From positions 3,111,298 through 3,143,185 of the forward strand of contig KN832554.1 of NCBI GenBank assembly GCA_000827205.1: 31,888 nucleotides of DNA, read 5' to 3'. This DNA comes from Plicaturopsis crispa FD-325 SS-3. Its lineage: Eukaryota > Basidiomycota > Agaricomycetes > Amylocorticiales > Amylocorticiaceae. Below are positions 4,194 through 29,249 of this stretch, in pieces. Below the pieces are notes generated by a model, which saw nothing but the letters and a program-made list of their open reading frames with translations, did no database searches and was not told the DNA's origin. A program made the position numbers and the translations under genes. The stretch's first letter is position 1. Each line of letters starts with the position of its first letter.

Positions 4194-5006
4194 TTACCAC
4201 CCATTCCATCCTCTTCCCCACGCTGAGCCGCCCTTCCCCTCCTCCTTTTCCGCCGCTAGCTGGAACGGATTGACGCGATATTCATGGTCCCAGAGCGAGA
4301 TGAGGTCCTCCCGAACCTCTTCGGTTATATCCTTCCATGGCTCCGAGTCCAAAGCCGCGAGCGTAACAACATCCAGTCGGTCCCCCGCCCAAACCCCGCG
4401 CGTAAGTCGTTCAGAATCGCGCTTGTCCATGCTGCACGACGGGTCCGACGACCAGCAGATGCGCGACAGGATAACGTCGCCGATGTGCGCGCCGGCGTCG
4501 GAGAACTCCAGCTGCACCTCGTCCTCGGGGAGTCCATCATCGGCACGGTCTTGCTCGGATTTGAACGCTGCGACGCGCACGTACACACGCTTCGTCAGGT
4601 TGCGCAGCACCCACGCTGCAGCGGGGAACGCGTTGCGTGTCTTCCGCGTGGATCCGCGTATGCTGCTCTGCTCCTCGTACGCGTATTCCGCGACCTGATA
4701 TAGGGTCTCGAACGAGTCGGACACGGCGCCGTATTTCTCGAGCCACTTCACGTCCTGGTGGTCCATTATGCTCTCAGGGTAGTCCCTGGCGTAGTCCCCG
4801 ATGCACACGATCTGGTCGCCTGCCCAGCACCCGGGTTCGCTCTCTTCGAAATCGTTGTCGGCTGGGAGCGGCTCCAGGGGAAGGAGAGGCACGGCGAAGA
4901 ACCAGATGAGCCTGTCTGCGCTCTTCCCTATGATATATTCACCAAGCTTCCCGATGTTTTTTCGAGTGCGTTTGTCGAGATCGAGGAGGAGCCAGTCTTG
5001 TCCCAT
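4194..5006 (-). CDS. MGQYW-family protein, copy A (270 aa)
   Basis: Intronless 270-aa coding region. ATG at 5006 is chosen over an upstream in-frame ATG at 5069 because all copies begin MGQ.W..L.LDKR and because 5069 lies inside the predicted leader intron. Shared blocks, in order: GKLGEYIIG, WAGDQIVCIGDYARDYP, DHQDVKWLEKYG, AWVLRNLTKRVYVR, LPEDEVQL, GDVILSRICWSSDPSCSM, RGVWAGDRLDVV and ITEEVREDLISLWDHE. The tail after residue 250 is Gly/Trp-rich. There is no signal peptide or membrane segment. I know this pattern only as a large basidiomycete family of unknown function; some relatives, from memory, carry an F-box insert, absent here. Copy A pairs most closely with copy F in both protein (SDAGA, VTLAALDS, R.NPF) and promoter. 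Confidence 0.85.
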   Translation of the reverse strand: MGQDWLLLDLDKRTRKNIGKLGEYIIGKSADRLIWFFAVPLLPLEPLPADNDFEESEPGCWAGDQIVCIGDYARDYPESIMDHQDVKWLEKYGAVSDSFETLYQVAEYAYEEQSSIRGSTRKTRNAFPAAAWVLRNLTKRVYVRVAAFKSEQDRADDGLPEDEVQLEFSDAGAHIGDVILSRICWSSDPSCSMDKRDSERLTRGVWAGDRLDVVTLAALDSEPWKDITEEVREDLISLWDHEYRVNPFQLAAEKEEGKGGSAWGRGWNGW

Positions 5007-5021
5007 AGTGTCTCTGTAATG

Positions 5022-5197
5022 CTGCCGGGATCTGTGAGTCCGGATTTCATCCTGCATGATGCTGAGCACTCACTGCTATGAACGTTCAATTCTAGGAAAT
5101 TGTGGTGGCGGTGAAGATCCTACGAAGGGAAAACTGGGAGAAAGAGTCAATTCGAAATCAAAAGCGATTTATAGGATGGCATTGGGAGGACAATGGC
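5022..5197 (-). promoter_or_regulatory. Copy A promoter and leader intron
   Basis: On the minus strand the motif GCCATTGTCCTCCCA (5197-5183) is followed 9 bp later by TATAAAT (5173-5167), then a likely 5'UTR intron (5073-5022, GTGAGT...GGCAG, 52 bp) and the ATG at 5006. The same motif, TATA box, intron and spacing occur in front of copy F. The TATA-to-ATG distance is about 165 bp in both. Confidence 0.7.
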
Positions 5198-5401
5198 AGG
5201 ATCTCACGCATGCGGTGGCCACCTTTCAAAAGTTATCGCCGGGTGGCGCCCCCATTGTGTCTGCCATTGTCCACCCATTGGCAGGCGTATCACATAAAAT
5301 GTCGCATCCTGAAACCAAAAACGACACAGCGTTGAAGGAGAGCGCGTCCCGGAGTACTGACATGGCATTGTTCTTGAGAAGACACACAACGTTTTCGACA
5401 T

Positions 5402-6928
5402 TCAATCCTGAACCTCCTCCCCTGACGACGCAAACGGGTCCCTTCCCCTATCAAGTACCCAGAGCGAGCGGATTTCTTCACGAACTTCGTCGCTTATGTC
5501 CTTCCACTGCTCAAAATCCGGGAGAGCCTCGAGGGTTTCCATGATCACCACGTCCAAGCGATCCCCTGCCCAAGCCCCGCGAGTGAGTCGCTCGGAAACC
5601 TCGTCTGGCAGCTTGGAAACATCGTCTGGCAGCTTGGAAACATCGCCCGGCATGGCGCATGAAAGGTCAGACGTCCAGCATATACGCGAGAGAATGACGT
5701 CGTCGAGAAAATCGCAGGCGCGCAAGTCCACCTCGTCGTCGGGGAGCCCTAGAGAGTCCGAGTCGTCGCGGTGGGTCTTGAAGCACGCAGCACGGACATA
5801 TACACGCTTCGTGAGGTTGCGCAGAACCTACGCGGCAGCGGGGAACGCGTTGCTCGTCGGTGCGGACACGCTGCACTGGTCTTCGTACGCGTATTCCGCG
5901 AGCTGATACAGGTTCTCGATCCCCGTTGAGTCAGACATGGCACCGTATTTCTCAAGCCACTTCACGTCCTGGTGGTCCGCCATGCAATCTGGGTAGTCTT
6001 TGGAATTCGAATAGTCCCCAATGCACACGATGCGGTCGCCCGCCCAGCACCCGGGCTCGCCCTTGTCGGCGTCGTCCGAGGGCAGGAGCGGCACGGTGAA
6101 GAGCCATGTAAACCTGCCAGCACCCTTCCCTACCAAACAGTCGCCGAGTCTCCCAATCTTGATTCGCACGCGTTTGTCGAGATTGAGGAGGAGCCAGTGT
6201 TGCCCCATAGCGTCCTCCGCCGCTGGGGGGAAGGGATCCGGTTTGTCTTCGGTTATCCAGAGCGAGCGGATCTCCTGACGGGCCTCGTCGCTAATGTCCT
6301 TCCACTCCTCTTTATCCGTCAGAGCGTCGAGGCTCGCAATGAGCACGATGTCGAGCCGGTCCCCAGCCCAAACTCCGCGACCTAGCCGGTCGGACTGCAT
6401 GTTGCAGAAATTGTCCGAGGACCAGCTTATACGCGACAGGATGAGGTCGCCGAGAAATACGCATGCGGGCGAGCGCGCCAGATCCACCTCGTCTTCGGGC
6501 AGGCCGAGGCGGCGGTCAGGCCTGGATTTGAAGCACGCGACACGGACGTAGACGCGTTTCGTGAGATTGCGTAGAATCCACGCGCCAGTGGGGAATGCGC
6601 TGCTGCTGCACGCCGGTTTGTACTTGTTATTACGACGCGGTAACTGTGCATACGAAGACGCGAGGTGATACAGGTTTTGGGCGTCGGGATCGCCCGCAAG
6701 TAGCTTCACCTCTGGGTGGTCCTTGAGGCTCTGAGGGTAGTCGCAAGAGTAGTCACCGGTGCAGATGGTGTGATCTCCTGCCCAGTGCCCGATCTCTTCT
6801 GCTGGCTCCTGTGGAATAGCGAACATCCACACGAGCCATCTGTTCCCACCAACCAGGTTTTCACCGAGTTTCCCGATTGAAATTCCGGCGCGTTTGTCGA
6901 GGTTGAGTATGCGCCAATATTGGCCCAT
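5402..6928 (-). pseudogene. MGQYW-family two-domain fusion, copies B and C, with internal TAG
   Basis: One continuous frame holds two complete family domains. Copy B (6928-6209, 240 aa, starts MGQYWRILNLDKR) runs without a stop directly into the start codon of copy C (ATG 6208-6206, MGQHWLLLNLDKR), so B's stop and C's promoter have been lost. Copy C has a TAG at 5830-5828 where the family has Trp (FPAAAW -> FPAAA stop); the frame after it is intact for about 140 more codons to 5402. The translatable product is therefore 366 aa (all of B plus the first 126 residues of C). B is closest to copy D, and C to copy A. C also carries a 21-bp internal tandem duplication (DDVSKLP twice). It may still make a B-type protein with an extra half domain. 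The TAG could be a sequencing error, a true null, or read through; I favour a degenerate second domain. Confidence 0.8.
5603..5644. repeat. 21-bp tandem duplication inside copy C
   Basis: Two exact 21-bp units (5603-5623 and 5624-5644) duplicate the residues DDVSKLP in the variable segment between the CWTSD and RGAWAGD blocks. It keeps the reading frame. Confidence 0.9.
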
Positions 6929-7470
6929 GAGTTATCGCGGTGCTATAGGTACGAGTCTTCAGTCGAATTGAAACCGCATCAATATTCAGAACTTACTGAA
7001 GAATGAGAAACTGTAGAATGATATTGGCGATATCTGCTGGATTCAAGTAGAAATTTGGAAGAGGATCGACAAGTCGTTGCGTTGAACAAAGTAAAGAGAC
7101 GTCGACGATGCCGCACCGATGCGTGCAAGCATTGGAAGCAACGTGTCGTCGACTTGCCGTCACGCGCCAGCAATACGCGGTCACGTGTCGTAATTGTGTT
7201 GCGCGTGCGTACACGGTATTACAGGACTTACCGGTACTTACTAGTACTGTCAGTGTACATGTCAGACGTAAAACTACTAATCATGGTCCACGCAGTTCAT
7301 GCCGCGATCGACGGCGGACGCGTATCCCATAGAACTTGGGTGCATTTTTGCGAAATGAAGATAGTACGAAACCAAGTCAAACTGGAAGCGACGGTAGCGT
7401 GCGCCGGAGTGAGTATTCGGAGTACAGACACACAATCGTTGAACGTTAAACAGTGTATGCTATACGACAT
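6929..7470 (-). promoter_or_regulatory. Copy B promoter region with leader intron
   Basis: The 5'UTR carries a likely 54-bp intron (6996-6943, GTAAGTTCTG...CCTATAG) followed by CACCGC and then the ATG at 6928. The intron's ends and the CACCGC after it match those of copies D and E. The rest of this 540-bp gap up to the stop of copy D holds no supported gene. Confidence 0.6.
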
Positions 7471-8232
7471 TCATTGCTGAGGAGCTACCTCCTTTACAGG
7501 TTTGAAAGGGTCCCTTGCGCCTTCGGTTATCCAGAGCTTACGAATCTCCTTACGAGCCTCCTTGCTTATGTCCTTCCACTCCTCTTTATCCGGAAGCGTG
7601 TCGAGGCTCGCCATGAGCACGATGTCGAGCCGGTCGCCCGCCCAAACTCCCTGACCCATTCCCTCGGACTCCATGTTGCAGAAATTGTCCGTGGACCAGC
7701 TGATCCGCGACAGGATCAGGTCGCCGAGAAATACGCACGCGGGCGAGCGCGCTAGGTCCACCTCGTCCTCAGGGAGTCCCAGGCGGACGTCTTTCCGCGA
7801 CTTGAAGCACGCGATACGGACGTAGACGCGTTTCGTGAGATTGCGCAGGATCCACGCGCCAGTGGGGAATGCGCTGCCGCGCGTGGGTTTATACTCGTGG
7901 TCAAGCTCGAGAGATTCGTACTCATCCGCGAGGTCATGCAGGTTTTTGTAGTCGGGGTTTTGCACAAGCCGCTTCACCTCTGGGTAGTCTTTGAGGCTCT
8001 GCGGGTAGTTGCGACCGTAGTCGCCTGCGCAGATGATGTGATCTCCTGCCCAGTCCCAGACCGCGTCAGACTCTGCGTCGTCGGCTGCTTGGTCCTGTGG
8101 CACTGCTTGATCCTGTGGTACAGCGAACATCCACACGAGCCATCTGTTCCCACCAACCAGGTTCTCCCCGAGTTTCCCGATAAAAATTTCAGAGCGTTTG
8201 TCGAGGTTGATTATGCGCCAATATTGACCCAT
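7471..8232 (-). CDS. MGQYW-family protein, copy D (253 aa)
   Basis: Intronless and intact, starting MGQYWRIINLDKR (ATG 8232). It shares long blocks with copy B, including GKLGENLVGGNRWLVWMFA, AFPTGAWILRNLTKRVYVR, LARSPACVFLGDLILSRIS and RGVWAGDRLDIV-type segments, so B and D are recent duplicates. In the variable N-terminal third an 18-bp near-duplication (8086-8103 and 8104-8121, 2 mismatches) repeats AVPQDQ. The variable region between the CGDY block and the FPTGAW block differs most among copies. Function unknown; no membrane segments or secretion signal. Confidence 0.87.
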   Translation of the reverse strand: MGQYWRIINLDKRSEIFIGKLGENLVGGNRWLVWMFAVPQDQAVPQDQAADDAESDAVWDWAGDHIICAGDYGRNYPQSLKDYPEVKRLVQNPDYKNLHDLADEYESLELDHEYKPTRGSAFPTGAWILRNLTKRVYVRIACFKSRKDVRLGLPEDEVDLARSPACVFLGDLILSRISWSTDNFCNMESEGMGQGVWAGDRLDIVLMASLDTLPDKEEWKDISKEARKEIRKLWITEGARDPFKPVKEVAPQQ

Positions 8233-8248
8233 GATGGTTATTGCGGTG

Positions 8249-8304
8249 CTATCGACAGTACTTGTTAGCCCAATTAGAATATGATGAATGTTCAGACCAC
8301 TTAC
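8249..8304 (-). promoter_or_regulatory. Copy D leader intron
   Basis: A 56-bp 5'UTR intron is predicted from GTAAGTGGTCTG (donor at 8304) to GATAG (acceptor at 8249), followed by CACCGC and the ATG 17 nt downstream. It is equivalent in place and sequence ends to those of copies B and E. Confidence 0.65.
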
Positions 8305-9367
8305 TTGCTAGATGGTCGCTCGCAGTTGAAGTGGGAAGGACTTGGAGGTCGTTGGGGAGAATAAAAGAGACAGCGAGAGACCAGGACGCCACGGTCAATT
8401 TCCTGCCGCCTCACCTGAAAGGCGCGTCGCGACCACGTGGGCGCGGTAGTCGGGAACTTCTGAGCCGATTCTTGAAGTTGTCGCCACAAATTGACATGTC
8501 TTGACTCTTGCCAACTGCACGCTGGGCAGCGACTCCAAACGAACATTGCAATCGCGTCTCTCTTGCGCTTAGCCTGCCATTTTTACTGTCTGTTATAACC
8601 CCAATGCTCCAAGTCCTGCTAGATAATGTTCGTGAGCGTTGACTTGCACTTATCAAGAAAACAGTATACTGACCGCTACATAGCTCGCAGATGCTAGAGT
8701 ACCCATAAGCGCGTCTTTATACAATGCCCAACTACAGGTTTCTTGGACTGGTGTCAGCGAATAACCAATGAGGACAGCTCAAGAGTCACTTGATGCCAGC
8801 CTTCAGGCAATGGCAGGTCGCCTGGAGGGCTGAGCGCTGAGTCTTGAGGTGCCCAACGACGCCAAGTTGACGACGCCCTTCCTTCCAGGCAGTCCCTTCA
8901 AATCTTCATTATGCATCGGTTATAAAACTCTCCGCCTGCCTAGCCTGCTCCAAGTTGGGCCAGACTCTGCGGCGTGAGTGCATACTTCCTGTCGTCGAGG
9001 TAACTCGTTCGCTTTGTTGGCGACTCCACACAGAAGGCCAGTCGGCAAGACTGGTCGACGATTTGAAAGCACCGTCAACGCGCGCCAAAAATCAAACTCT
9101 CCGTGTCGTCGGTTGCGAACCTCCTTCAAGACAGCGGCAGAAGAAAGAAGCGCTGTAAGGGCTGCACGGTTGTATGAAAGAACTCGCCGCCTCTCCATTT
9201 ATGTCATTCTTGCAGCTTCCCCGTTCGCTCGGACGCCGTTGCTACTCTTCATCATAGTACTTATATAGGTGAGCACGTCCAGCTATCTGAGCGTTGTGTT
9301 GTTTTCTCTGTCGCAGCTAGTCTGCTATTCTTTTTCTTTTCTTTTCTCTTTTCTTTCTTTGAACACA
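8305..9367. promoter_or_regulatory. Divergent promoter region between copy D and the NCS1 permease
   Basis: About 1 kb lies between two divergently transcribed genes. TATAAAA at 8921-8927 is a candidate permease TATA box. A predicted 5'UTR intron (9269-9316, GTGAGC...TCGCAG, 48 bp) precedes a CT-rich leader (about 9317-9360) and the permease ATG. The leader contains short upstream open frames. The region from 8560 to 8900 shows nothing further. Confidence 0.5.
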
Positions 9368-11527
9368 ATGCCAGTCGCTCCGGGAGTGTCCTTCCCCTCG
9401 TTCCCTTCTCTCAGCCGCGCTAGCTCGCGCTCCTCTTTTGATTCCCTCGAGAAACCGGCAGGCCCGCAGACCTTCAACCTTAACAATTCTTTGAATGGAC
9501 TCATCAGGTCAACGCCCGCACCCACATCCGCATTCCAAAAGTTTGTCCAGCGATTGGAGGTACCGATCGACGACAATGTAGCCTGTATGTGTTTCTCCAT
9601 CTTCGTCATTCACCGCGCTCACAACGAGTACGCGCAGACCAAAACGACGCATACTGCAACCGCGACCTGATCCCCATCCCGCCCGAGCGGCGCACCTGGA
9701 CCTGGGTATCGTTCGCGATGTACTGGGTCACCTCCGGCATATCGCTCTCCGCGTACAGCGTCGGCTCCTCGCTCCTGATGCTCGGTCTCAGCGTGCAGCA
9801 CGCCATTATCCTTGCAGTCGTCGGCGGGTTCATGAGCTCCACTCTCGCGGTTGCGGTAGGGCAGATCGGTGAGGCGCACCGGATTTCGTTTGGGGTGGCC
9901 ACGAGATATAGCTGGGGCATGAAGTTGTTCTGTGCGTGGGTTTCTCTCGGTTTCTAGAAGAAAAATCGAACGGCTTTGCAGATGCCCCGTTGGTTCTGAG
10001 CATCCTACCGTCCATCGTCGGATTTGGAACGCAGGCATATATGGGCGGCCAAGCAGTCCGCGTCACCCTCGGGGCTCGTAAGCTCTTTTTTCACATCAGC
10101 AGCCCATCCAGCAGAATAAAAACTCTCGGTTTTAGTCTTTCCAGCATTCGCGCATATGAAAAATACGATTCCCCTGTCCTCCAACATCGCCACGAACGAC
10201 CTCATCGGGATCCTCATCTGGTTCATGGTCTACATCCCCTTCGTCCTCATCCCGCCCGAGAAATACACGCGCCCCTTCATGGTCACTGGCGCCATGTTCG
10301 CCGTAACGCTCATCGGGATGCTCATCTGGTCCGTCCAGCACGCGGGCAGCATCGGGCCATTGTTCCACCAGCCCCCGACGACGCCGCAGCTCGGGTGGGC
10401 GGTGATGTTTGGCATGAATAGCGTGTCGGGGCTGGTTACGGGTGCGACTGCGCAGATGAACTGGACTAGGTATTCTGCGAGGCCTGGGGCGCAGATGGTG
10501 AGCCAGCTGGTGGCGGCTCCGGTGGTGATCACCTTCGCGTCTGTGTACGTTCTTCGCAGTCGTATCTCAATTCGCGAGTGCGTTCTAACCGCTGTGTGTG
10601 AGCAGGATCGGCATTGTCGTGACTAGCGCCTGCTCGCAAATACTGGGCCAACTTTACTGGTCGCCCGTCCAGCTTCTCGGGGTGCTTCAAGAGCATTTCA
10701 ATTCCAGCCCCCACGCGCGAGCGGGTGTGTTCTTCGCTGGCCTAGGCTGCTTTGCGTCGACCGTGTCCCTCAACACGTTGAACTCCATCACCACCGGGAT
10801 GGATATAGCTGCGCTGTGCCCACGCTTCATCAACAACAGGAGGGGCGCATATTTGCTTGCTGCGGGTATGTTGCATTGTCTTAGCGGTGTAAATCATGTT
10901 TAATGGGTGATGTGAAGCGGGCATCGCATCGTGCCCATGGCAGATCCTCGCCACCGCTAAAAGTTTCCTCGGAGCACTGGGCGGAGCTGGCGTCTTCCTC
11001 GCACCTGTACGTATCCACCCTTCCAACGTCTCAAGATGCCCCGCTGACCCACGGAGGGACAGATAACCGCAATAATGATCTCCGACTACATGGGCACGCG
11101 CCAAAAGACCATCTCCGTCCCAGACCTCTACATCGACGGGCCCGAGTCGATCTACTGGTACAAAAACGGCTGCAACTGGCGCGCCCCTTTGGCATGGGTC
11201 ATCGGCACGCTGCCCGCCTTCCCCGGGTTCGTCATGTCCGTCATGGACCCCGCGGCGAGCAACTTCTGGATCAAGCTCTACAGCCTCGAGGGCTTCGTCG
11301 GCCCGCTGTCTACGGTAATGGCGGTGACGGTGATCGCCAAGCTGAGCCCGCCGCCGTATATTGGACTCGGGACGCGTGCGCTGGACGATGCGGTGATGTT
11401 TAGCAATGACCGCAGCCTGGGGGCGAAATATGGTCTTGGGGAGAACTATACGGGAGAGGAGGGTGCGGGGAAGACGGCGAGTTGGAGCGAGGAGAGTTTG
11501 GCTAAGTATAAGGGTGGGTATGTTTAG
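9368..11527 (+). CDS. NCS1-family transporter (uracil/allantoin/thiamine permease-like)
   Basis: Seven exons: 9368-9584, 9638-9931, 9982-10077, 10145-10544, 10606-10865, 10918-11006 and 11063-11527. Introns are 50-67 bp, all GT-AG with matching phases, giving 606 aa. The family is shown by RDLIPIPPERRTWTWVSF before the first membrane helix, GQIGEAHRISFGVATRYSWG, GFGTQAYMGGQAVR, NHxS-free helices ending in LNSITTGMDIAALCPRFIN, RRGAYLLAAAGIASCPWQIL, FLAPITAIMISDYMGTRQKT and the SVPDLYIDGPESIYWYKNG loop after it. About 12 membrane segments are expected. NCS1 proteins import nucleobases or related compounds with protons or Na+. The RTWTW signature and the PDLY loop resemble the FUR branch (uracil, allantoin, thiamine, nicotinamide riboside) more than the FCY branch; the substrate cannot be read from sequence. 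The N-terminal 65 residues are Ser/Pro-rich and cytosolic. Confidence 0.9.
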
Positions 11528-11784
11528 AGTTGAGACAGGGTAAGGTGTACAAGTATCGTCTGTAACTGTATTATCACTTGGTTAGAATTGCGTAGCACTA
11601 GAGGGCAGAGAATAACACCCACTTTCCTTCATCGCTACGCAACTGAAGTGAGACAAGGATGTTCGAGGAAGGACGCTGTCGAAGGTTGTTAGTGGGTCAC
11701 ACGAATATCACATCGTTCCCTCAGTGTGCAGCTCTAGCAGACTAGATTCAGAATGCATAGTATGTAGTGGGTACCTAGTCCTGA

Positions 11785-12606
11785 GGCTATCGCGCCCAGT
11801 GTATAGGCGGTCACCGTTATTACGTAATCCGCCTTTTATATCCTGGCCCCTATTCACGCTCAAACGCGCGCAGGACGCGCCTGACGCCGCGCAATCGTCT
11901 CTTGAAACCATATCTCCTAGCAATACGAGCTGTCTGCTTCATTCGGTTTACATAGCTCCTGTTTTGAATGCTTCCCGACTGCAGATCACAGTCTGATCTT
12001 GTGTTCAAACCAAAATCTGCTCCTTTTTACTGCTATAGCAATGCTGTAAATCCACTCACGACGCCGGTAGGCTTCTCTGTGCAATTGCAGACTTTACGAG
12101 GGGCATGAAACCCTTAGGTATTACCTGTACGGCTCTTGCGCTACATCGTGCAAGCCGGTTCTCTTTGACAGCAGTACGGTCATCAAGGGTCAGCAGTACA
12201 CCTACAAATGCCTGACACGCTAGAACTGTCCATTGTACTTAAGATCACATCGGGGATACCTCCGTCAATGTATCCAGTCCCTTTTCATACGGTGATTTCT
12301 TTGACTCCAGGAGTCCTAGCGTTTTAGCAGCTCGTGCTCTCGGCTGGTGCCCAGCTTACCCAATTACTATACTTTGCACTACCAAAACCTTCCATTTCAG
12401 CCCAGAAATTGGGTGTAACTGAGTATCCCTATAATAATTGTGACTATATAGCTCAAAAGCGTAGAGTTTGCATCCCTAGCGCGTCTCCGGTGGGGAGACG
12501 ATGCCAAAAGACGCGATGCGGCAGGACGCGACGACGCGTTTGCGCGCGTCCCAAAAAGGAGCATTACGTAATAACCGGGACCGCCTATACACTGGGCGCG
12601 ATAGCC
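11785..12606. mobile_element. Foldback or MITE-like element with 44-bp inverted ends
   Basis: Bases 11785-11828 and 12563-12606 are inverted repeats with 42 of 44 positions identical (starts GGCTATCGCGCCCAGT, ends GTTATTACGTAAT). Weaker inverted similarity continues inward for about 80 bp. The interior of about 730 bp has no coding potential. An 11-bp direct repeat TAGTGGGTACC lies just outside (11765-11775 and 12656-12666), but it does not abut the ends, so it is only a weak candidate for a target duplication. It sits between the 3' ends of the permease and LYS12. No transposase is present, so it would be non-autonomous. Confidence 0.6.
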
Positions 12607-12743
12607 AACAGACTACAGAAGGAGGTACGACTGTTGGTGTCTGTCTAGGAGAGACTAGTGGGTACCAGGCTATCATCATCTAATGAAATCCACATATACT
12701 CATGAACATCCGCCGTAGATCGCACACCACACCACACCACCAC

Positions 12744-14386
<1,643 letters not shown>

Positions 14387-14778
14387 TTTGTATGAACGCC
14401 GACGAGTGTTTTATGAGGGAAAGTCAAAACATGAAAAGTTTCTGTAAAGCGTTCAGTAGCCCATGACGTCTTTCGGCCGAAACTTTCCGACCGCTGCGCG
14501 CGTCCTACCGATAAGTTGGCACGCGTACTCAACGCGTTTGGACTTTACACGTCAGACAAGGATATCCGAGCCTGCGAGGTTCAAGGAATTGTCTACTACC
14601 TGCCTTTGGGAGACTACTTTACACCGCTCAAACGTTCGCTTTCCTTCCACTTGGGCATCCTCAAGCTTCAAGCCTTGCTACAATCGTCCTGCACTTGTTC
14701 ATCCTCCAGTAAGTAGTCTGGAATTGATCAGGATAACACCTGGACTGAGAAGACCATCCATAGCACCGCGACAGGATC
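14387..14778. promoter_or_regulatory. Divergent LYS12 / copy E promoter with copy E leader intron
   Basis: 392 bp separate the two start codons. On the plus strand a 55-bp 5'UTR intron is predicted (14709-14763, GTAAGTAGTCTG...CATAG) followed by CACCGC and the ATG 16 nt later, as in copies B and D. No clear TATA box was seen for either gene. Confidence 0.6.
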
Positions 14779-15600
14779 ATGGGCCAATATTGGTGTATAC
14801 TCAACCTCGACAAGCGCCGTCTACTGGGAATGGGGAAACTAGGAGAAAACCTGCCTAGGGGCGACAAAACGCTTATGTGGCTGATAGCCGTCCCTGTCCC
14901 AGCACAGGAGGACACTGACGACTCGCCACCTGCCGAATACGGCGAACCTGCTGAGCGCCCGCCTGGGCGTTGGGCAGGCGATCAGATTATATGCGTCGGA
15001 GACGGTGGCCATGACTGGCCAGAGAGCATCCAAGACCACCCCGATGTACGGTGGCTTGCGGAGAACGTCGACCCCGACCCCGACCCCCAGGCCTACTACG
15101 ACCCCAACACGGTCGACAACCTGTACAAGCTCGCATATGAGGATTACGGCGGACAGCGGCGGCCCAGCGAGTGCGGGCCAAAGCGCAGCAAGGTGTTCCC
15201 TCCTGGGCCGTGGGTCCTACGCAACCTGACGAAGCGCGTGTACGTCCGTGCTGCCTGCCTCAAATCCCAGCGGGACGAGCTCCCGGACGACGAGGTGGAC
15301 CTGGAGCATTCGCATGCGAGCACGTTCCTCGGCGAGGTCGTGCTGTCGCGTGTATGCTGGTCGTCGGACTATTCCTGCAGCATGAATCGTGCCATCGGTG
15401 ACCGGATTGCGCGCGGGGTTTGGGCTGGGGACCGCTTCGACATCGTGAATATGACGAGCCTCGACGCTCTTCCGGATGTTGAGCAGTGGAAGGACATAAG
15501 CGACGAAGTTCGCGAGGAAATTCGCTCGATGTGGGTAATCGAACGCGGACAGGACCCGTTTCAGCCTGCGGAGGCGACGGAGGCTGAGGCTGAGGATTGA
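14779..15600 (+). CDS. MGQYW-family protein, copy E (273 aa)
   Basis: Intronless and intact, starting MGQYWCILNLDKR. It has every family block: GKLGENL, RWAGDQIICVGDGGHDWPESI, DHPDVRWLAE, PWVLRNLTKRVYVRAACLK, LPDDEVDLEHSH, GEVVLSRVCWSSDYSCSM, RGVWAGDRFDIV and WKDISDEVREEIRSMW, with an acidic C-terminus. A variable insert of DP repeats (DPDPDP) lies before the central block. Unlike copies A-D it is on the plus strand, divergent from LYS12. The leader intron places it with B and D. Function unknown. Confidence 0.87.
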   Translation: MGQYWCILNLDKRRLLGMGKLGENLPRGDKTLMWLIAVPVPAQEDTDDSPPAEYGEPAERPPGRWAGDQIICVGDGGHDWPESIQDHPDVRWLAENVDPDPDPQAYYDPNTVDNLYKLAYEDYGGQRRPSECGPKRSKVFPPGPWVLRNLTKRVYVRAACLKSQRDELPDDEVDLEHSHASTFLGEVVLSRVCWSSDYSCSMNRAIGDRIARGVWAGDRFDIVNMTSLDALPDVEQWKDISDEVREEIRSMWVIERGQDPFQPAEATEAEAED

Positions 15601-15810
15601 GTCTTGACTTGCGCTGTGTGTTTTGTCGCAGCAAAAACCTGTTTTGTCACCAACAACTTTATGTCAGTTCTTCGAACATTATTGACGTTCTCAGCCGTCC
15701 AAGGTGTCGTAAATCTGCATTCCAACTGGACACGAAGTTCCACAGGTGCAAGCGTCGAAACAATGGGATCCGGGATGTGGCCACCGCACGCGCAGACCAA
15801 TTCTGAAGTC

Positions 15811-15984
15811 GCCATTGTTCTCCCATCCTATTACTATAAATCGCCTTTGACTTCAACTGATGCTACTGACCTCTTTCTTCGTCCCTAGCCTTCCCCGCCA
15901 CCACCACTTCGTCAATCCTGTACGCTCCAAACGGTGAGTCGCCTCATCTCTGTGTAGGACGTTCGCTCACAAGAACTTTGACAG
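15811..15984 (+). promoter_or_regulatory. Copy F promoter and leader intron
   Basis: GCCATTGTTCTCCCA (15811-15825), 9 bp, TATAAA (15835-15840), then a 51-bp predicted 5'UTR intron (15934-15984, GTGAGT...GACAG), then the ATG at 16000. This matches the copy A promoter in sequence, order and spacing. Similarity starts further upstream at GTGGCCACCGCA(C/T)GCG. The rest of the copy E-F gap (15601-15775) shows no gene. Confidence 0.7.
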
Positions 15985-15999
15985 CATCACCACAGCATC

Positions 16000-16747
16000 A
16001 TGGGGCAATACTGGCGCATACTCAACCTAGACAAACGCGTCGCAATCAAAACCTATAAGCTCGGCGAATATCTGCTTACGCACGAGACGAACAAGCTTTT
16101 CTACCTCTTCGCCGTTCCGCCCCTTACGCAGGAGCAAGACTCATCCGGAGTGAGTCCATTCGGGCGGTGGGCCGGCGACCAGATCATCTGCATCGGGGAC
16201 TATGCCAGGGACTACCCAGACAGCATCAAGGACCACCGGGGTCGTGTCCGGCGCGACGGGGTTCGACGACTTGTACGAGTTCGCAACTTACAGATACGAG
16301 CACCAGCGCGGAGCGCCCCAATCGACGGATGGAGCGGCGGACGCATTCCCCGTCGGCGCGTGGGTGCTGCGCAACCTCACGAAGCGCGTGTACGTCCTCG
16401 CTGCGCGCTTGAAGACCCCGTGGGACCGCGAGCAGGGACTCCCCGACGACGAGGTGGATCTGGGGTCCTCGGACGCTGGCGCGTTTCTCGGCAATGTTAT
16501 CCTGTCGCGTGTCTGCTGGTCGTCGGACCCATCGTGTAGCCTGCACGAGGAAGATTCTAAGCGAATCTACCGCGGGGTTTGGGCGGGGGACCGGTTCGAT
16601 ATCGTTACGCTCGCGGCCTTGGACTCGCTCCCGGACGCCGAACTTTGGGAGGATATAAGCGAGGAAATTCGTGAAGAGGTCGGGTTACTTTGGAAGCATG
16701 ACCGCGGCGTCAATCCGTTCGAGCCGGCGGAGGACGCTCAGCATTGA
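16000..16747 (+). pseudogene. MGQYW-family copy F, with internal deletion and frameshift
   Basis: The N-terminal part is intact (MGQYWRILNLDKR, KLGEYLL, RWAGDQIICIGDYARDYPDS). At about 16235, just after IKDH, the frame changes: the remainder of the family sequence (GFDDLYEFA, AWVLRNLTKRVYVLAA, LPDDEVDLG, GNVILSRVCWSSDPSCS, RGVWAGDRFDIV) continues in another frame to the TGA at 16747. The segment equivalent to DVKWLEKYG in copy A is missing, so a deletion not divisible by three is the simplest reading. Left as is, translation from 16000 gives 179 aa with an unrelated tail ending at 16539. No GT-AG pair nearby would remove the problem without losing conserved residues. Closest to copy A. Confidence 0.75.
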
Positions 16748-19463: not shown

Positions 19464-20401
19464 ATGGGCCTGTCGATATCCACCCTGTTCAGCTCGTTAA
19501 CGTCTCTGGTGCGGTGGAGCAAGGACCAGGATGTCCGTATACTAATGCTCGGTCTGGATTCTGCTGGAAAAGTGAGCACTTGCGAGCCCATTGGACCAAA
19601 TCCCCGCGTTACTGATCATGGGTCTGTACCCGCAGACAACTATCCTGTATAGGCTTCAGGTATTTTTGCCGTGTCCTTTCTAGTGTATAGGTGCTCTCAA
19701 TAAATGACACGGACGAACCCAGATTGGAGAAGTTGTATCGACAATTCCGAGTACGGTTTCCTTTCCCACTCCCCACATTCAGGCTTTTGATGCTGATTGC
19801 GCCGCTCGTACAGCCATTGGATTTAATGTCGAGACCGTGCAGGTACGCCCCCCATACATCCCCAACTCATGCGGTCGTCGCGTCTAACAGTCCACAGTAC
19901 AAAAACATCAAATTCCAAGTGTGGGATCTCGGAGGACAGTCGAGTATCCGGTACGTGCCCCCTCTCCGCATTCCCTCTTTACAACCCCGCTATATCAAGT
20001 TATCAACCGTCTACAGACCATACTGGCGATGCTACTTCCCGAACACCTCCGCCATCATCTACGTCATCGACTCGTCCGACCACGACCGCCTCCCGACCTC
20101 GCGCACGGAGCTGCTGACGATGCTCTCGGAGGACGAGCTCACGGGCGTGCCGCTGCTCGTGTTCTGCAACAAGCAGGACGTCGGCGGCGCGCTGAAGCCG
20201 GAAGATATCAGCGAGCAGCTGGGCCTCGCGGGTGGGGAGAAGACACGGCCGTGGAGCGTGCGCGGGAGCTGTGCGACTAAGGGAGAGGGCTTGGAGGATG
20301 GCTTGGATTGGTGCGTTGTGGTCTACGTTTTTGATACGAAGCGTGCGAAGATGGTTAACCGTTGGTTGGGCAGGCTGGTCAACGCGATACAGAAGAAATA
20401 G
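19464..20401 (+). CDS. ARL1: ADP-ribosylation factor-like GTPase ARL1
   Basis: A Golgi small GTPase that recruits GRIP-domain golgins. Seven exons: 19464-19571, 19636-19659, 19723-19750, 19814-19842, 19898-19950, 20017-20310 and 20374-20401; 187 aa. Gly2 and Ser6 (MGLSIS) fit N-myristoylation. P-loop GLDSAGKTT (30-38), switch I IPTIGFNVETVQ, switch II VWDLGGQSSIRPYWRCYF (Q77), NKQD (132-135) and SCATK for base binding. WDLGGQSSIRPYWRCY separates ARL1 from ARF (which has VWDVGGQDKIRPLWRHY). Exon 2 is only 24 nt. The last intron (20311-20373) is in frame and without a stop, so a retained-intron form would add 21 residues before the LVNAIQKK end; homology supports splicing to GLDWLVNAIQKK. Confidence 0.95.
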
Positions 20402-20623: not shown

Positions 20624-22401
20624 TCACTCGCCCACAGACCAACTCCACTCCCACCCCGCCTCCTCCGGATCACGCACACACGTCCGATACCGCTCGACAT
20701 CAGGCCTCCACACGCGCACGGTGCCATCGTCCGCACACGTCGCCAGCACCCCATCCGCCGCCCAATCCACCGCGCCCACCTCACCGCTCTGTCCCCTCAA
20801 TTCCACTCCACTACCCCTACTCCCAGCTGTACCTGCACCTGAACCCGCACGCACCCTTCCCGCATTCCCCACATCCCACAAAAACGCGCTCCCCCTCGGC
20901 TGCGCGCACCCGCTCGCAAGCCAGCGCCCGCACGGCGACGCCGCGACGTGCACGTAAAAGGAGGAGGTCGTCTGCATCCGTGCGTCTGCGTAGGTGTCGT
21001 TGAGGGGCTGGAGGGAGGGGAGGTGGTAGGTGTGGATGCGCGCGTCGGCGCTGAGCGCGAAGAGGAGTCCCGTGGTTGAACCTGAGCCGCGGGTGAAGCT
21101 GGTTATCCCGCGCGGGCGGCGGGTGTCGGTCAGAGTGGGGTCGGTGGGGGAGGTGTTTACGAGGGCGTGCTTTGCTTTTCCGGGGGTTCGTTTGCCGGTG
21201 GTGGGGAGGCGGATGTCCCAGTGGCGGAGGATGCTGAAAACACCGTTGGAATGAGGCACGGATTTAGAAAGTGTCGAGAAAACATACCCGTCAAAGGACC
21301 CACTGCTGACGATACCGCATGGCACGGTCTCAAGATACAGCACATTAGTAACACTCCTTGCCTTCGGCGCCGACTTCGGCCTCCTCCCCCTCCTCGGCGT
21401 CACATCCTCATGCGCCCCCTTAATAGCCAGCACCGCGCCCCCCTTCCTCCCCTCCTTCATCGCGACGCGCAAATCCCATATGCGCAATTCGCCGTCGCGC
21501 CCGCCCGTGCACAGCAGGTCCGCGTGCTGCGGGTCCCACTCGACGCACTTGACGGTGCCGGCGTGTCCAAGGAGGAGGGCGAGGGGGCGCGCGGTGGCGG
21601 CGCAGGAGACGCGCGCGGAGTGGTCGCCGGAGGCGGTGGCGAGGCGCGTGGAGGCGGCGTCCCATTTGACGGCGAACACGCCGTTGTGGTGCGGTTGGAG
21701 CGTGGTGCGTGGGGGTTCTGTGGTAAGTGTGTGTTAGGTTAAGCGTGTGAAGGTGGGTGGGGGGGAGAGGGGGGCTTACCGGGGTCCCAGTCCTGACGGC
21801 GCGAGGTGTTGAGGATGTGGACGGAGCCCTGCTCGGTCGCGACTGCGAGGAGGGGGGTTCCACCGCGCTTGGCGTCTGCGAATCAAGTCAGGCGTACTGT
21901 ACTTGGGTGTTTGATGGCCGCACGTACCATTGGAGAATGCACACGCGTATGGAGGTGACAGGTAGGAATCTGCGTCGACGGAGGTGCATTTGTACACGTC
22001 GGCTTTGTGGGACGAGACGAGGGACTGCAATATTGGCCGCGTTGATATCTCTAAGCATGCATATATGAGCGCACACACATAATTCAACGTGTGGAACACT
22101 CACCCCATGGTGGTTTGAACGCGAGTGGGCGGCCGATATTCGCTATGCCCAACATATTTCCTCTCCTCCTGCTCCTAACGGCAGCGACCGCCTCCATGTC
22201 TACATCGCTGTCGCTCTCATAATTCTCTTCGGAGTCGCTACTGCTTTCGTCGGTATCGATTTTTGCACGCTTCCGCGCCGCTGTCGTCGAGTGCTTGTAG
22301 GGCCTCTTCTGGCCGGACGCTGACCATGGATTGCGGTCGAGCTCGCTGTTTGTGCAGTTGATTAGAGCAGGCCTTGGGGATGTTGGTGGGCTCGAGTCCA
22401 T
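20624..22401 (-). CDS. WD40-repeat protein, Cdt2/DTL-like
   Basis: Five exons: 22401-22104, 22050-21928, 21875-21780, 21717-21288 and 21233-20624; introns 53, 52, 62 and 54 bp; 518 aa. The N-terminal 95 residues are disordered, with a basic patch (AARKRAKID) and an acid-serine run (DESSSDSEENYESDSDVD). Then come WD40 repeats: HNGVFAVKWDAASTRLATAS, LLGHAGTVKCVEWDP, LLCTGGRDGELRIWDLR, a linker with basic RRGRRPKSAPKARSVTN, SSGSFDGILRHWDIRLP, HVAASPCGRWLASGC, SGEVGAVDWAADGVLATC and DDGTVRVWRPD. The order and the CTGGRDGELRIWD plus SSGSFDG.LRHWDIR pair match Cdt2, the substrate receptor of CRL4 ubiquitin ligase that destroys Cdt1 during replication. The second exon acceptor (22051) is the least certain junction. 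It is convergent with ARL1 (222 bp between stops). Confidence 0.85.
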
Positions 22402-22678: not shown

Positions 22679-23298
22679 GTGTCTCGTGTCTACTGTCCTA
22701 CTCCCATCCATCCATCAACATCCCAACTCTTCAGTCTATCTATGCAAATGATTGATTGCAAAGGCCTGCAGTCAAGTAGAAGTCAGTGTTGTGTCCTCCC
22801 CAGTGTAAGGACAAGCTTACCGTGATAGTTACAAGTCCGAGTCGTCGCATTTCCCTTGGAAATATGGTTAGCTTCAAATCCGAGACTCAGGTGCAAGACA
22901 ACGAGGCTCACCCAATAAAACGAGCCGTGCAGCAAGAACGTCTCCGCGCCGTTGAGTCGTTTCGAACCGAAAACTACACGAGGCTGTCTCTTAACCGGGT
23001 ATCCTACGCGCTGATGCCGAATGGTCGCATCTGTACGAGAATAAACATTAGTGTCATCCAGAACAAAGTGAACACGTCGAAAACTTACCGTGTAATGTCT
23101 TTGAGAAGGGGACGAGGAATCTGCTGGGAGCAGACTCGCGCGGCGTTGTATCTGTGAATGTGAATGAGTATCAGCGTCGCCGTGAAAAAATAAGGCGTCG
23201 AGAACTTACCGTGCATGCATACAGCTGCTCTGCGAGCTCCAAAGAGACAAGGAGGCTGCTCGCCGAGAAGGCGCCGTCAACGGCGCACTCGGAAATGT

Positions 23299-23330
23299 CT
23301 CTCGCGTGCGGACCACGCCGCACGCGAGAG
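23299..23330. repeat. Perfect 13-bp-arm hairpin
   Basis: CTCTCGCGTGCGG (23299-23311), 6-nt loop, exact reverse complement at 23318-23330. It lies at the left edge of the hairpin minisatellite and has a similar CG-rich character but a different stem. Confidence 0.85.
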
Positions 23331-23420
23331 GACGGGACAGCGGCGCGGCGACGAATCGGCTTGATGAGGGCCGTGCGTCGAATTCGAAAGTCGGCGCGAA
23401 GGACAGCGGGAGGGAGGAGC

Positions 23421-24730
23421 CGCGAGCACCACGCACTCGCTCGCCGGAAGGCGATCCGTATAGTCTTCGTCGTCCTGCGCAGATTGCGAGCATTGAGGCC
23501 GAGGGATAGCCGAGACTCCAACAGCAGGAGGGGGCGCGAGCGCTACGCGCCCGCTCGCCGGATTTCGATCCACATATACATGGCCATCCTGTCCGAAGGT
23601 GGAGACCAGAAGGTTGGGGCGGGAAACCGGTGACAGCGGGATGGAACACCAACGGCAGGGAGGAGCGGCGAGCGCTACGCGCCGGCTCCGAGTCTCCGAA
23701 GTTCGAGCCATATAAACGTCGTCGTCCGGGATGGGGTTTGAGTTTCGAGGCCAAGGATTGGCAGGCACAAATGGCAAAAGGGAAACGCGAGCGCTACGCG
23801 CCCGCTCGCGGGAAGTGCGGGCGTGCGGACGAGGAGGGGAACGACAACGAGGCAGAAGGAGGGCGCGAGCGGTGCAGCCCAAAATACCAAGACGGCGACC
23901 GGAGGTGAAGGGGAACGGCGGAGGCAGGATGAGGGCGCGAGCGCTACGCGCCCGCTCGCGGGACGTCGATCCATATATACTTCGTCATGCAGAGTGAGGT
24001 GTGAGCTTCGAGGCAAAGAGATGGGCGGGAAATCGGCGGGATGACGAAGGCGCGAGCGCTGCGCGCTCGCTCGCGGGATCTCGATCCATATATACATTGT
24101 CGTCCAGCGAGACCTGCGAGACTGTAGATCAAAGGAGTGGGCGGGATGGCGAAGGCAGGGGGACAGGCGAGCGCTACGCGCTCGCTCGCGGGAATGTGAT
24201 CCATATACACTTTGTTGTCCGGGGGAGGATGCGAGCGCGAGGGCTGCGGCGGTAGGAAAGAGCCGCGAGCGCCACGCGCCCGCTCGCGGGATGTCGATCC
24301 ATATAGTCTTTGTCGTCCGGTATGGAGTGGAAGCGTGAAGACCACAAAAGACGGCGGCGGAAACAGAAAGATGGAGGGAAGCGCGGACGCTACGCGTCCG
24401 CTCGCGGGGCGCAGTTCTATATATACTTTGTCATACGGGACACCTGAGAAAGACGGTCAGCACTGTACATACATACAAAGGGGATGCAGACCGATGTACT
24501 GCGGCGCTGAAGGACGCGCGAGCGCTGCGCGCTCGATCGCGGGATTCATTTCTATATATACTTCGTGATCCTGACCACCTGCGATCGACGGTCAGCGCCA
24601 CCGACACAGACGAAGGGGATGCCGCACGACGTACCAGCACATCGAGATCAATTGAGCGAGCTGCTGCGCCAGGGGATGCGCGAGCGCTGCGCGCTCGCTC
24701 GCTCGACTCATTTCTATATATATATACTTT
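23421..24730. repeat. Minisatellite of about 11 hairpin units
   Basis: Diverged units start near 23421, 23536, 23668, 23787, 23937, 24052, 24167, 24265, 24383, 24518 and 24680 (spacing 98-162 bp). Each has a GC hairpin of the form GCGAGCGC-TAC-GCGCTCGC followed by GGGA..TCGATCCATATATAC and often TT(T/C)GTCGTCC. Stems are perfect at 24052-24070, 24167-24185 and 24680-24698. At 24383-24401 the stem is GCGGACGC-TAC-GCGTCCGC, changed on both arms but still perfectly paired. Others carry one extra base (CGCGCCCGC) in the right arm. Spacers share weaker similarity (GAG.TTCGAGGC.AA). Unit length is not a multiple of three, so a repeated protein is unlikely, though long open frames result from the low stop content. 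Confidence 0.85.
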
Positions 24731-25879: not shown

Positions 25880-28511
25880 TCAGAAGGCAATCTCGTGGGC
25901 GTGATGGTCCGCAAATTTGCTAACATAGTATGCCTCAAACGAGTCGTATGTATCACGAAAATGAAAATCGCGGGGAAGGTGAGCACTGCCGTAGACGGGC
26001 AAAAGATGAGCGAGGCGCATGATGCTGTCCAGATGAATGACTGAAGTGGCACGGATGCCGTTCGCATCTCGATCCGGCTCGACCACCCACATCCCAGTAT
26101 CCTCGCAGGGATGTGCGTTGACAATGTTGAACCATTCAACGAGGGCACACGGATAAATCGAATCATTGTGCTTGATGGAGAACAGAAGCCGTACGCGGAC
26201 AGTGTGCATGCCCTGCACCCCGTCGATGTCCGCGTCTTTTTCGGCGAACACGCAGTCATAGCGAGGACCGGTGTTGCGCCAGGAATGAGTCGCGCGGATC
26301 AGCTCGCGGTGCATGCCATTGGTGCCAGAGATGTCGCTTGGCGCATAATACACGGCAGCCGCCGAGGGATAAGCAGTGACCTTTCCGTAAAAGAGGGGAC
26401 AGCCGTCGAGGGGGGTATCGGGTAAGGCGTCCGGGTAGAGCTGGTCCTGTAGAAAGCGACGGATATGATCAAGTAGATGTGGCTCGTTAATGCATTCGCC
26501 GAGTGCATCTACATCGCGCGGGTACATTCCCCTGGGAGAAGGACGTCGTGCGAGGGTTACGTGGGAAAGAACAATGGGACCATCTAAAATGGGGTTATCT
26601 GCATCATCATCTGGCGGCGGCGCGGGGGGAATGGCCTTGTTGGAGAGAAGGCCTTTTGCTGTGAGGTCCGCGCGGAACGCGGTAAGCTTGTCGAGCCGTT
26701 GATTGGTGAGTAGCATCTGTCCCAGCGCTTCGAAATGGCTGGAACGGCGCCACGGCTCCTTTACTGCCTTGATATGTTTCGATTCGGTGATAGACGAGCA
26801 CAGGCCGTTGGGCGCGCCAAAAAGTTCGATGTGCACACGATAGTGGACGAGGGAGTGTTGTCGGGGGAGGGAGAAGTCGTTGCGCACACCGGTGGCAAGA
26901 AAAATCTCGCGGTCCCGATGGAAACGCATGAGCGCACTATCGATGGCGTCGAGAGTGGTCTCGTCAATGACATCGCGGCGGACAAGGTAACAGAAGTCGA
27001 GAAATGCGCTGATAGCGCGAACCATCTCAGAAGGGACGTGGCCGGCAATTGCTGGGAGGAAGACTTTCATAAGCGCTTTCGAATCGTCCCCAGTCCACTG
27101 TTTGAAACCGCGGCCCTCCTTGAATCGACGCAATCCGGGGAAAGGCGGAGCGGCGGCAATGCTTGATTCGGACAACATCCATGAGTACGAAGCATTGCAA
27201 AAGCAAAAACTAACATACCGACGATCAATATCTGCCATAATGACCGCTGCACGAGTTGGGCCGTGCTCCAGGGTCAAATACTCTTCAACCCATGTCACGA
27301 GGTGGTCCTTGAAAGTCCCCTTGATGAGCTGATGGAGGAGATCGGGCGAGAGAAGCTGGTGGATATCTGCTCGGGGGAACGAGGCTGTAAAGGGCTAGAA
27401 TGCAGTGGTCAGCTATACGATGCAGTGCGGTTTATTTCTAACAGGACCGTACAATTATTTTGCCTGCAATTCCATAGTCGCGCCACAATACATCGAGGTC
27501 AAAAGCATCAAGAAGGGCGGCGGTATGCTCGTGGGAACGTCTCCCCGACGGGCCATCGAGATTGTCAGGAGGTGCTGTGCATCTTAAAGTCAAATAATAA
27601 CGAGTCAGCAGGACAAACTGGATGAGACGCGAGGAACTAGACTTACTTCGGACACCATCCGTTGACTACAGATGATAGCAGAACCTGTTCCGGATAATCG
27701 GCGATGTACGGCCCCAGCCCGTAAATCACACGGCGGTAATGGCCATCTGGGCACATTGTAACCTCTGGTGCCGTCATGGCAGGGCGAAGAGGCTCCATTA
27801 TGATGCGCAGGGACGTGTGGAATAATTGTCGCGTGAAATCCCGGAATGCCTGGTCATTAGCATACTCGCGAGATGCTAGGAACGATACCAAGGATCAGAA
27901 TAAGGCCGCGCATGCAAAAGGTTGACACACAGACCTTTGGGAATTGCGAGGAATGCAACAAGGGACACGGCATCACGATGCGCCCGGCGGACATTATTGT
28001 GAACCACCCCGTTGGACACATATAGCGGATAGTAGTCGTTTTGGCCTGTTGCAACAGAGACTGTCGTTTTGTCACTCCCCAAGATCACAGGGACGAACAT
28101 TCCGCCGTGAGTGTCCTCATCCTCCGCGATAGCATCCTATAGCAGAGTTAATGTCTATCTGAAGCATGAGAACGAGTGACTTACCGCCTGCTGATACGCC
28201 CAATTACCGGACATGAAGTTTTGATACCGTCGCTTGTTGTTCGAGTCAAATTCTCGGAATGGTGCAGCATCAAACCCGCTTGCGCCAGCGTTTGGATTGG
28301 CTAATTGGTTGCGAAGAACAGTCCGGGGATTTCGGTACCAGACCTCGTACTCTGTGACCATCCACGGAGGCACATTTTCGAGCGGGCGCGGTCCAGTGTA
28401 CGAGATGGAGAATGAGCTCCATACAGTCTCCCCTTGCTCGATGGAGTCAATCGTGGTGTAGAGCTCGCTGTGATCAGCAAACGGCGGAGAGGTGTCGGGA
28501 TACAGCCATTG
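25880..28511 (-). mobile_element. Plavaka-type DNA transposase, 5'-truncated
   Basis: Six exons on the minus strand: 28511-28185, 28136-27935, 27875-27647, 27582-27453, 27394-27219 and 27161-25880. All five introns (48-64 bp) are GT-AG and in phase, giving 781 codons with no stop. Family blocks: PPFADHSELYTTIDS, NVPPWMVTEYEVWYRNPRT, DFMSGNWAYQQA-type, FVPVILGSDKTTVSVATGQN, YPLYVSNGVVHNNVRRAHRD, GHYRRVIYGLGPYIADYPEQ, RADIHQLLSPDLLHQLIKGT, FKQWTGDDSKALMKVFLPAI, LPRQHSLVHY, FGAPNGLCSSITESKHIKAV and the C-terminal SVIHLDSIMRLAHLLPVYG and SKFADHHAHEIAF. Full-length relatives have roughly 150-250 more N-terminal residues, missing here; the match starts abruptly at 28511. Plavaka elements are cut-and-paste transposons of the CACTA-related (CMC) group. 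No terminal inverted repeats were found, so the element is probably immobile. Confidence 0.85.
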
Positions 28512-29249
28512 CTGTAAGTAATTTACACAGGAACCTGCGATGAGCCGGTGGCCGCGATGCAAAGCAACGCGCAGACCAGATCTCCTGCCAACCGGATCTG
28601 ATTTGTCAGCATATCAGCAGATCGGACTTGGAAAATCTTGAAACCAAATCCCGGCGCGTTTTTCGGCTTCCGAAAACGGCTGTACAGCCCCTAAGCATGC
28701 CAGGACTCTATCCGCGCACCCTCGGGCATACCTCGGGCATCTGTCTTGGAATTATTGGCCCCTAAATCGAGTTGAATGTTTGCGCGCTCGCAGCCCGTGC
28801 TCGGGCTCACCTCGGGCATTCGGTATACATGTGATTTCCGACAAGACACAAACATAGCGTACAGTACCCTATGTGCTGTGAATATATTTCGATTTTTTGT
28901 GTTTTTTTTCAATGTTTTTTTATCGTTTCATTCATCGGGCTGTGATACTTATTGGCAGAGAGGGCTGGTAGTGAATTATAAAACGAATTTATTGATGTGG
29001 TATGTACTGCAGAGACTACGCGACGGCGGCGGCAGCAGCGCCGACACCTTCGGCGCGCGCGCGACGGCCGGGAAGAGGACGGTAGCGGCGGTGAGACGCT
29101 GCGCGACAAACGACGCACAGAGCGCGCGGACTACTGCCGCTGCGCTGTGCTCGCCGCCGTCGCGCGCTTCGCTGTCGTGCTCTTCCCTACCGCGTCGCAT
29201 CCCGCTGTCGTCAGGCGGCACCTCCGCGCTCGTGTCGCCTGCGCACCCC

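Follow-up and report, generated by a model that had tools for sequence, protein, structure and literature searches.

The locus described here raises the question of what the related sequences are that surround an NCS1-type permease gene and a LYS12-like gene in the fungus Plicaturopsis crispa FD-325 SS-3, and to which proteins they are related. The window, i.e. the whole stretch of DNA that was analysed, comprises 31,888 nt (contig KN832554.1, positions 3,111,298 to 3,143,185 of the forward strand). The initial annotation had described a six-copy gene family mirrored around the two genes and had proposed birth-and-death evolution as in recognition or defence families. The reading favored here, with a probability of about 0.55, is that the array consists of local paralogues of a probably soluble single-domain protein, which form a diverged eukaryotic branch of the phage and plasmid MGQYY family (phrog_3156).

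Six related stretches are found at this one locus in two outward-pointing arms, copies A to D on the minus strand and copies E and F on the plus strand. Coordinates and Pfam matches agree with the proposed arrangement of six related copies in mirrored arms around the permease and the LYS12-like gene. The copies are:

4194..5006, minus strand: copy A, 270 amino acids, open, intronless coding frame with start MGQDW
5402..6208, minus strand: copy B, interrupted by a TAG at 5828-5830; 5' half like copy A, 3' half like the class of copies C, D and E
6209..6928, minus strand: copy C, own stop absent; a 366-residue frame (5828-6928) continues into B
7471..8232, minus strand: copy D, 253 amino acids, open, nearest to C (75% amino acid identity; synonymous substitutions per synonymous site, dS, 0.40)
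14779..15600, plus strand: copy E, 273 amino acids, open
16000..16747, plus strand: copy F, broken, frame lost between ~16234 and 16262

The pairwise amino acid identity among copies A to E is 47-75%. Protein queries with D, E and A against the 33.2 Mb assembly yielded at least 8, 7 and 7 places, respectively, every one at this locus; these counts are lower bounds, with each gene matched exon by exon. The start MGQYW is found in C, D, E and F, MGQDW in A and MGQHW in B, i.e. MGQY plus an aromatic residue in four of the six copies. K-L-x-E is present in all copies except B, which carries RLGD.

No interruption is found in the coding frames of A, D and E or in that of C as far as B, and these four coding frames have no introns. 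In copy B, the TAG replaces the Trp codon of the W(V/I)LRNLTKR core. In copy F, the frame is lost where sequence found in the other copies is missing; an intron as the source of this frameshift was rejected because sequence is missing at the site rather than added. The frame of copy C runs directly into the MGQHW start of B and ends at the TAG of B, thus carrying C and the first half of B. The six stretches of the initial annotation stand, but at most four of the six frames are therefore whole. An assembly error may underlie the stop in B or the frameshift in F. The motifs described as common to all six copies differ in some letters: B reads GAWAGDRLD and LSRICWTSD and is without the core Trp, and F has WVLRNLTKRVYVL.

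Some prokaryotic proteins start with MGQYY and carry WAGDYAD. A pattern scan for these motifs yielded four stretches in viral contigs, and two of the proteins encoded there match phrog_3156 and phrog_35050, families with no assigned function. In further scans, the set grew to 11 loci and then to 252 relatives, and the best 80 of these were retained. All 46 phage proteins used in the comparisons below match phrog_3156 and 45 of them match phrog_35050. By tblastn, 187 of 50,697 phage records were matched, 185 of these named Mycobacterium, and 4 of 72,556 plasmid records; when a mycobacterial plasmid protein served as query, 17 plasmid records were matched. The MGQYY family is also present in Bixzunavirus mycobacteriophages, mycobacterial plasmids and the Ruminococcus albus plasmid pRUMAL01. 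Among 14 control genomes, Bacteroides ihuae alone matches phrog_35050 and none match phrog_3156. A scan of genome contigs with a phage protein confirmed none of 36 candidates.

The fungal copies and this family have several features in common, arranged in identical order: an MGQ start with an aromatic residue at position 5, K-L-x-E, a stretch rich in W and G ahead of (I/V)x-x-GDY, and N-x-TK(K/R)..(Y/F)V. The distance from GDY to LRN/N is 59-73 in the fungal and 33-73 in the phage proteins, and that from KLGE/KLME to the next W segment is 29-45 and 23-29, respectively. Differences are also apparent. The fungal copies have MGQxW where the phage proteins have MGQYY, Cys-x-GDY in place of Trp-Ala-GDY, just K-L-x-E of the phage motif KLMEHS, and a longer C-terminal tail (WKDIS.E.R). 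The C-terminal G.WARD.IS of the MGQYY family has GVWAGDR.DIV at the matching place in the fungal copies, with the C-terminal half alone not significant.

In a profile comparison with hhalign, the four open fungal copies and the 46 phage proteins align with a score of 54.0 (probability 93.4, E 2.5e-7 for this single comparison); the alignment covers columns 1-145 of the fungal profile. With a smaller set of 12 prokaryotic proteins, the score is 50.6. The maxima of 100 column shuffles per side are 26.8 and 25.1, and a reversed profile reaches 22.2. Trimming 13 fungal and 14 phage columns from the N-terminus leaves a score of 44.5 (probability 84.7). The best of 69 unrelated phage-neighbour proteins, compared as single sequences, scores 20.8. 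When a profile built from 50 prokaryotic sequences was used for hmmsearch, three of the four fungal proteins lie above all 2000 shuffled decoys, and BLASTP of copy C against the phage protein L032 gives an E-value of 0.003 for that one comparison.

The alignment was also examined in pieces. In local mode, the segment ahead of WAGD and the segment from WAGD to LRN each score above all 60 shuffles. The part from LRNLTKR on is not significant, as its score is reached by 1 of 60 shuffles, or by 2 of 60 at a slightly later cut. The link is thus well supported in the N-terminal half; elsewhere, it is a matter of position only. Global-mode hhalign of the pieces was not used, being unstable under shuffling in three of four cuts (null maxima >120); there, the observed value was reached in 2-5 of 60 shuffles, and in none of 60 for the N-terminal piece.

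Besides the C-terminal part, several results weigh against kinship with the phage family. The whole-profile global-mode alignment has a probability of 43.7. As single sequences, the 46 phage proteins score 14.9-47.6 with a median of 23.0, so that many of them lie near the control maximum; the range is 16.1-21.8 for four named members from mycobacteriophages and plasmids. Copy E is outside the best eight hmmsearch rows. An hmmscan of the four fungal proteins against PHROGs did not match phrog_3156, the best row being another family at E 0.11, and a genome search with the phrog_3156 and phrog_35050 models misses this locus. The phage pair was selected by a motif known beforehand and did not emerge from a blind search. 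The phage motif HPLPLLTCEGNGRGGGD is absent from the fungal copies, and the model built from fungal sequences alone is of low confidence (predicted local distance difference test score, pLDDT, 39.0). Direction of transfer and function rest on inference. As the fungal copies fail the test with curated profiles, they are termed a remote branch of the family and not members.

An independent fungal family, whose MGQY/WAGD/NLTKR likeness to the phage proteins would be due to convergence or chance, could account for the non-significant C-terminal half, for the lack of matches to the two family models and for a pair chosen via a motif known beforehand. This explanation is quite unlikely, since two non-overlapping segments in the same order each exceed all 60 shuffles and the full score is 2x the best of 200 shuffles and 2.6x the best of the 69 natural controls (the latter as single sequences). 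As a separate observation, reduction of the HPLPLLTCEGNGRGGGD motif is seen in L038 and L039 too, two members from mycobacterial plasmids, which resemble the fungal copies in their reduced GNGRGGGD motif.

Searches starting from the fungal side gave no further relatives. Copies A, C, D and E have no credible match in Pfam, PHROGs, NCBIfam or PADLOC, the last of which covers prokaryotic systems. Weak NCBIfam rows of copy A, VanY (E 0.0059) and AB5 (E 0.22), are far below the cut-offs and were rejected as chance. Scans with the fungal alignment confirmed 0 of 129 stretches in viral contigs and 0 of 15 in genome contigs, a GVWAGDR pattern scan of viral contigs gave no stretch, and tblastn of copy E against phages confirmed no relative. 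A sequence search of the PDB with copy D alone had no match. A literature search on MGQYW, MGQYY, WAGDYAD and phrog_3156 gave no relevant paper in the partial texts that it covered.

Structure prediction is informative for the phage side. The model of a phage relative is confident (pLDDT 87.7) and has no counterpart among solved structures. Accordingly, a housekeeping fold, which the initial annotation had named as an outcome that would speak against its proposal, was not found for the phage relative; the comparison covers this protein only because of the low confidence of the fungal model. A PDB search with the profile of the 46 phage proteins returned P450 rows at chance level (best E 0.68). 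Pfam matched eight families on these proteins, each in one or two members and with a best E-value of 0.0097. The new element is thus a remote link between an orphan fungal family and an orphan phage and plasmid family of unknown function. If the link is true, a structure or assay in either kingdom would inform the other, and the confident phage model lacking a solved match is a worthwhile target for a first structure.

On the basis of the broad prokaryotic distribution of the family, the absence of introns from the coding frames and the restriction to one locus in this genome, the family is inferred to have entered the fungal lineage from a prokaryote or phage. In a survey of 829 fungal genomes, 20,093 prokaryote-derived genes are reported for 750 genomes (PMC11708051).

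To characterize selection on the copies, the ratio of nonsynonymous to synonymous substitutions (dN/dS) was calculated with the Nei-Gojobori method. Over the 10 pairs of copies A to E, it is 0.28-0.40, and the copies are on average under purifying selection. By segment, the ratio is lowest around LTKRVYVR (0.18), followed by the other conserved segments (0.25-0.36), and amounts to 0.58 in an acidic spacer (3 of 10 pairs) and 0.62 in the middle (10 pairs). The core is thus constrained and the middle less so, in line with the variable middle on a conserved core that had been noted before. Constraint on the core is borne out by this comparison; positive selection between paralogues is not, as the ratio is below 1 in each segment in this comparison of paralogue pairs.

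These values bear on the suggestion of a fungal recognition, allorecognition or defence family, in which the middle segment would diversify to track changing targets. Such a family would be expected to look much like this array, being multi-copy and clustered, with a variable middle, broken copies and exchange between copies. In addition, the surroundings of some phage relatives include DUF932, GP88, ParB-like and helicase genes, and counter-defence genes are common in such a setting. Defence is nevertheless unlikely. No tested segment, the middle included, exceeds a ratio of 1, and a relaxed loop accounts equally well for the middle. The four open copies have neither a Pfam domain nor a PADLOC defence model, and the PADLOC row of a single phage member is at chance level (E 0.028). 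The step from birth-and-death evolution to recognition or defence is therefore not followed here. Birth-and-death multigene arrays of fungi in general share clustered paralogues, tandem duplicates, pseudogenes and copy exchange with this locus; in contrast to them, no Pfam domain of a known recognition family and no positive selection are seen.

The neighbourhood of the phage genes was characterized from 168 neighbour frames of the 46 genes, 69 of which were scanned. Among the 25 of 34 Pfam families listed, DUF932 is found in 6 neighbours, GP88 in 4, L5 gp82 in 4 and DnaB_C in 3. ParB-like, primase/helicase and UvsX-like PHROGs are found in 2-3 members each among the 25 of 62 listed. The neighbourhood is an accessory or replication setting and not a function. 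Frames of ~1.1 kb, scanned in bulk, are located shortly downstream of the phage gene (L081:2757-3836, L082:2745-3833 and L085:2617-3690).

For the diverged branch of the MGQYY family proposed here, a guess from sequence, which we hold at well below even odds, is that the protein serves as a binding module within the cell, with two variable loops on a constrained core. Together, the MGQ-, KLGE-, WAGD..GDY- and RNLTKR-motifs would form a single intracellular core that binds a ligand or partner. Two stretches of variable length, one ahead of WAGD and one ahead of RNLTKR, would be exposed loops that tune specificity between copies. A more far-reaching scenario, in which a phage or plasmid protein with an unmatched fold was taken up by the fungus and expanded into a self-recombining array against invading genetic elements, is a long shot.

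The history of the array was reconstructed from divergence, upstream sequences and trees. dS is 0.40 for C/D and 0.92-1.41 in the other nine of the ten pairs of A to E; C and D are a younger tandem pair. Upstream sequences define two groups:

5015..5384, minus strand: upstream region of copy A, resembling that of F, with the shared CTATAAATCGC (TATA-like) stretch
15640..15991, plus strand: upstream region of copy F, resembling that of A
14709..14763, plus strand: probable intron in the 5' untranslated region (5'-UTR) of copy E, GTAAGT...TAG ahead of the start codon, read by eye

The upstream sequence common to A and F spans ~370 bases and has a local score of 120 (maximum 35 in 100 shuffles). 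A separate 5' leader is shared by C/D, C/E and D/E with scores of 48, 64 and 48 (shuffle maxima 30, 42 and 35). The upstream similarity of the remaining six copy pairs is no higher than that of their own shuffles. Stretches similar to the putative intron of E precede C and D (GTAAGT...TAG), and GTGAGT...CAG stretches precede A and F, as judged by eye. Every copy except B thus has what looks like a 5'-UTR intron of the form GT(A/G)AGT...(T/C)AG ahead of it.

The tree of the 5' part splits ABF from CDE (support 96) and that of the 3' part AF from BCDE (support 100). The array comprises two sequence and promoter classes, A and F versus C, D and E, with B as a mosaic of both. In the comparison of A with E, the informative sites of B are A-like in 91 of 113 cases on the 5' side and in 29 of 90 on the 3' side; with C instead of E, the counts are 86 of 109 and 29 of 81. 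Neither switch was reached in any of 5000 permutations, and the break falls within the NLTKR core. F is not significant as a mosaic (2796 and 961 of 5000 permutations), and two further mosaic tests of copy E gave 119 and 364 of 5000. The 3' part of B groups with the C/D/E class (support 100), but the split that separates E and C/D from B has a support of only 56. As this part is not securely tied to E, the donor may equally well have been C or its ancestor, within the same arm, and exchange between the arms is just one possible origin of B. The younger C/D pair, the broken copies B and F and the mosaic B agree with birth-and-death evolution within this genome.

A and F are outermost and C, D and E are nearer to the centre, as would be expected if a two-gene unit had long ago been duplicated in mirror orientation. 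In such a history, a pair consisting of an A-type and a C-type gene would have been duplicated so that the two pairs mirror each other on either side of the permease and LYS12 genes. The tandem duplication of C/D, the exchange between classes that produced B and the decay of B and F would have followed.

The decay of B and F, together with the lost stop of C, would also suit a relict array that has no current function. This is very unlikely, as A, D, E and the C part are still open and dN/dS is 0.28-0.40. Moreover, the upstream regions of A and F are still alignable despite strong divergence at synonymous sites (proportion of synonymous differences, pS, 0.44-0.55).

Two genes are located between the arms:

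9673..11302, plus strand: NCS1-type permease (Transp_cyt_pur), Pfam-matched exons only
12759..13509, minus strand: Iso_dh gene, homoisocitrate-dehydrogenase-like (LYS12), matched exons 12759-12971 and 13333-13509

The best solved match of the first Iso_dh piece is the homoisocitrate dehydrogenase 3ty3. An inverted repeat (11776-11837 and 12554-12615) lies between the two genes, with 62 nt arms that are 87% complementary and 716 nt apart. On the far side of copy F, an ARF-family GTPase is encoded at 19691-20398 (plus strand) and a WD40 protein at 20627-21679 (minus strand), the best Pfam row of which, a THOC3 propeller, is under its cut-off. At ~23150-24600, translated frames on both strands contain similar repeated phrases, as read by eye, and the region looks like a degenerate repeat array. 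A Plavaka transposase fragment, in keeping with an agaricomycete genome, is found at 28158-28562 on the minus strand (Pfam PF18759, E 2.1e-25). A 472-residue frame at 25880-27298 on the same strand, which has no Pfam match, may belong to the same element.

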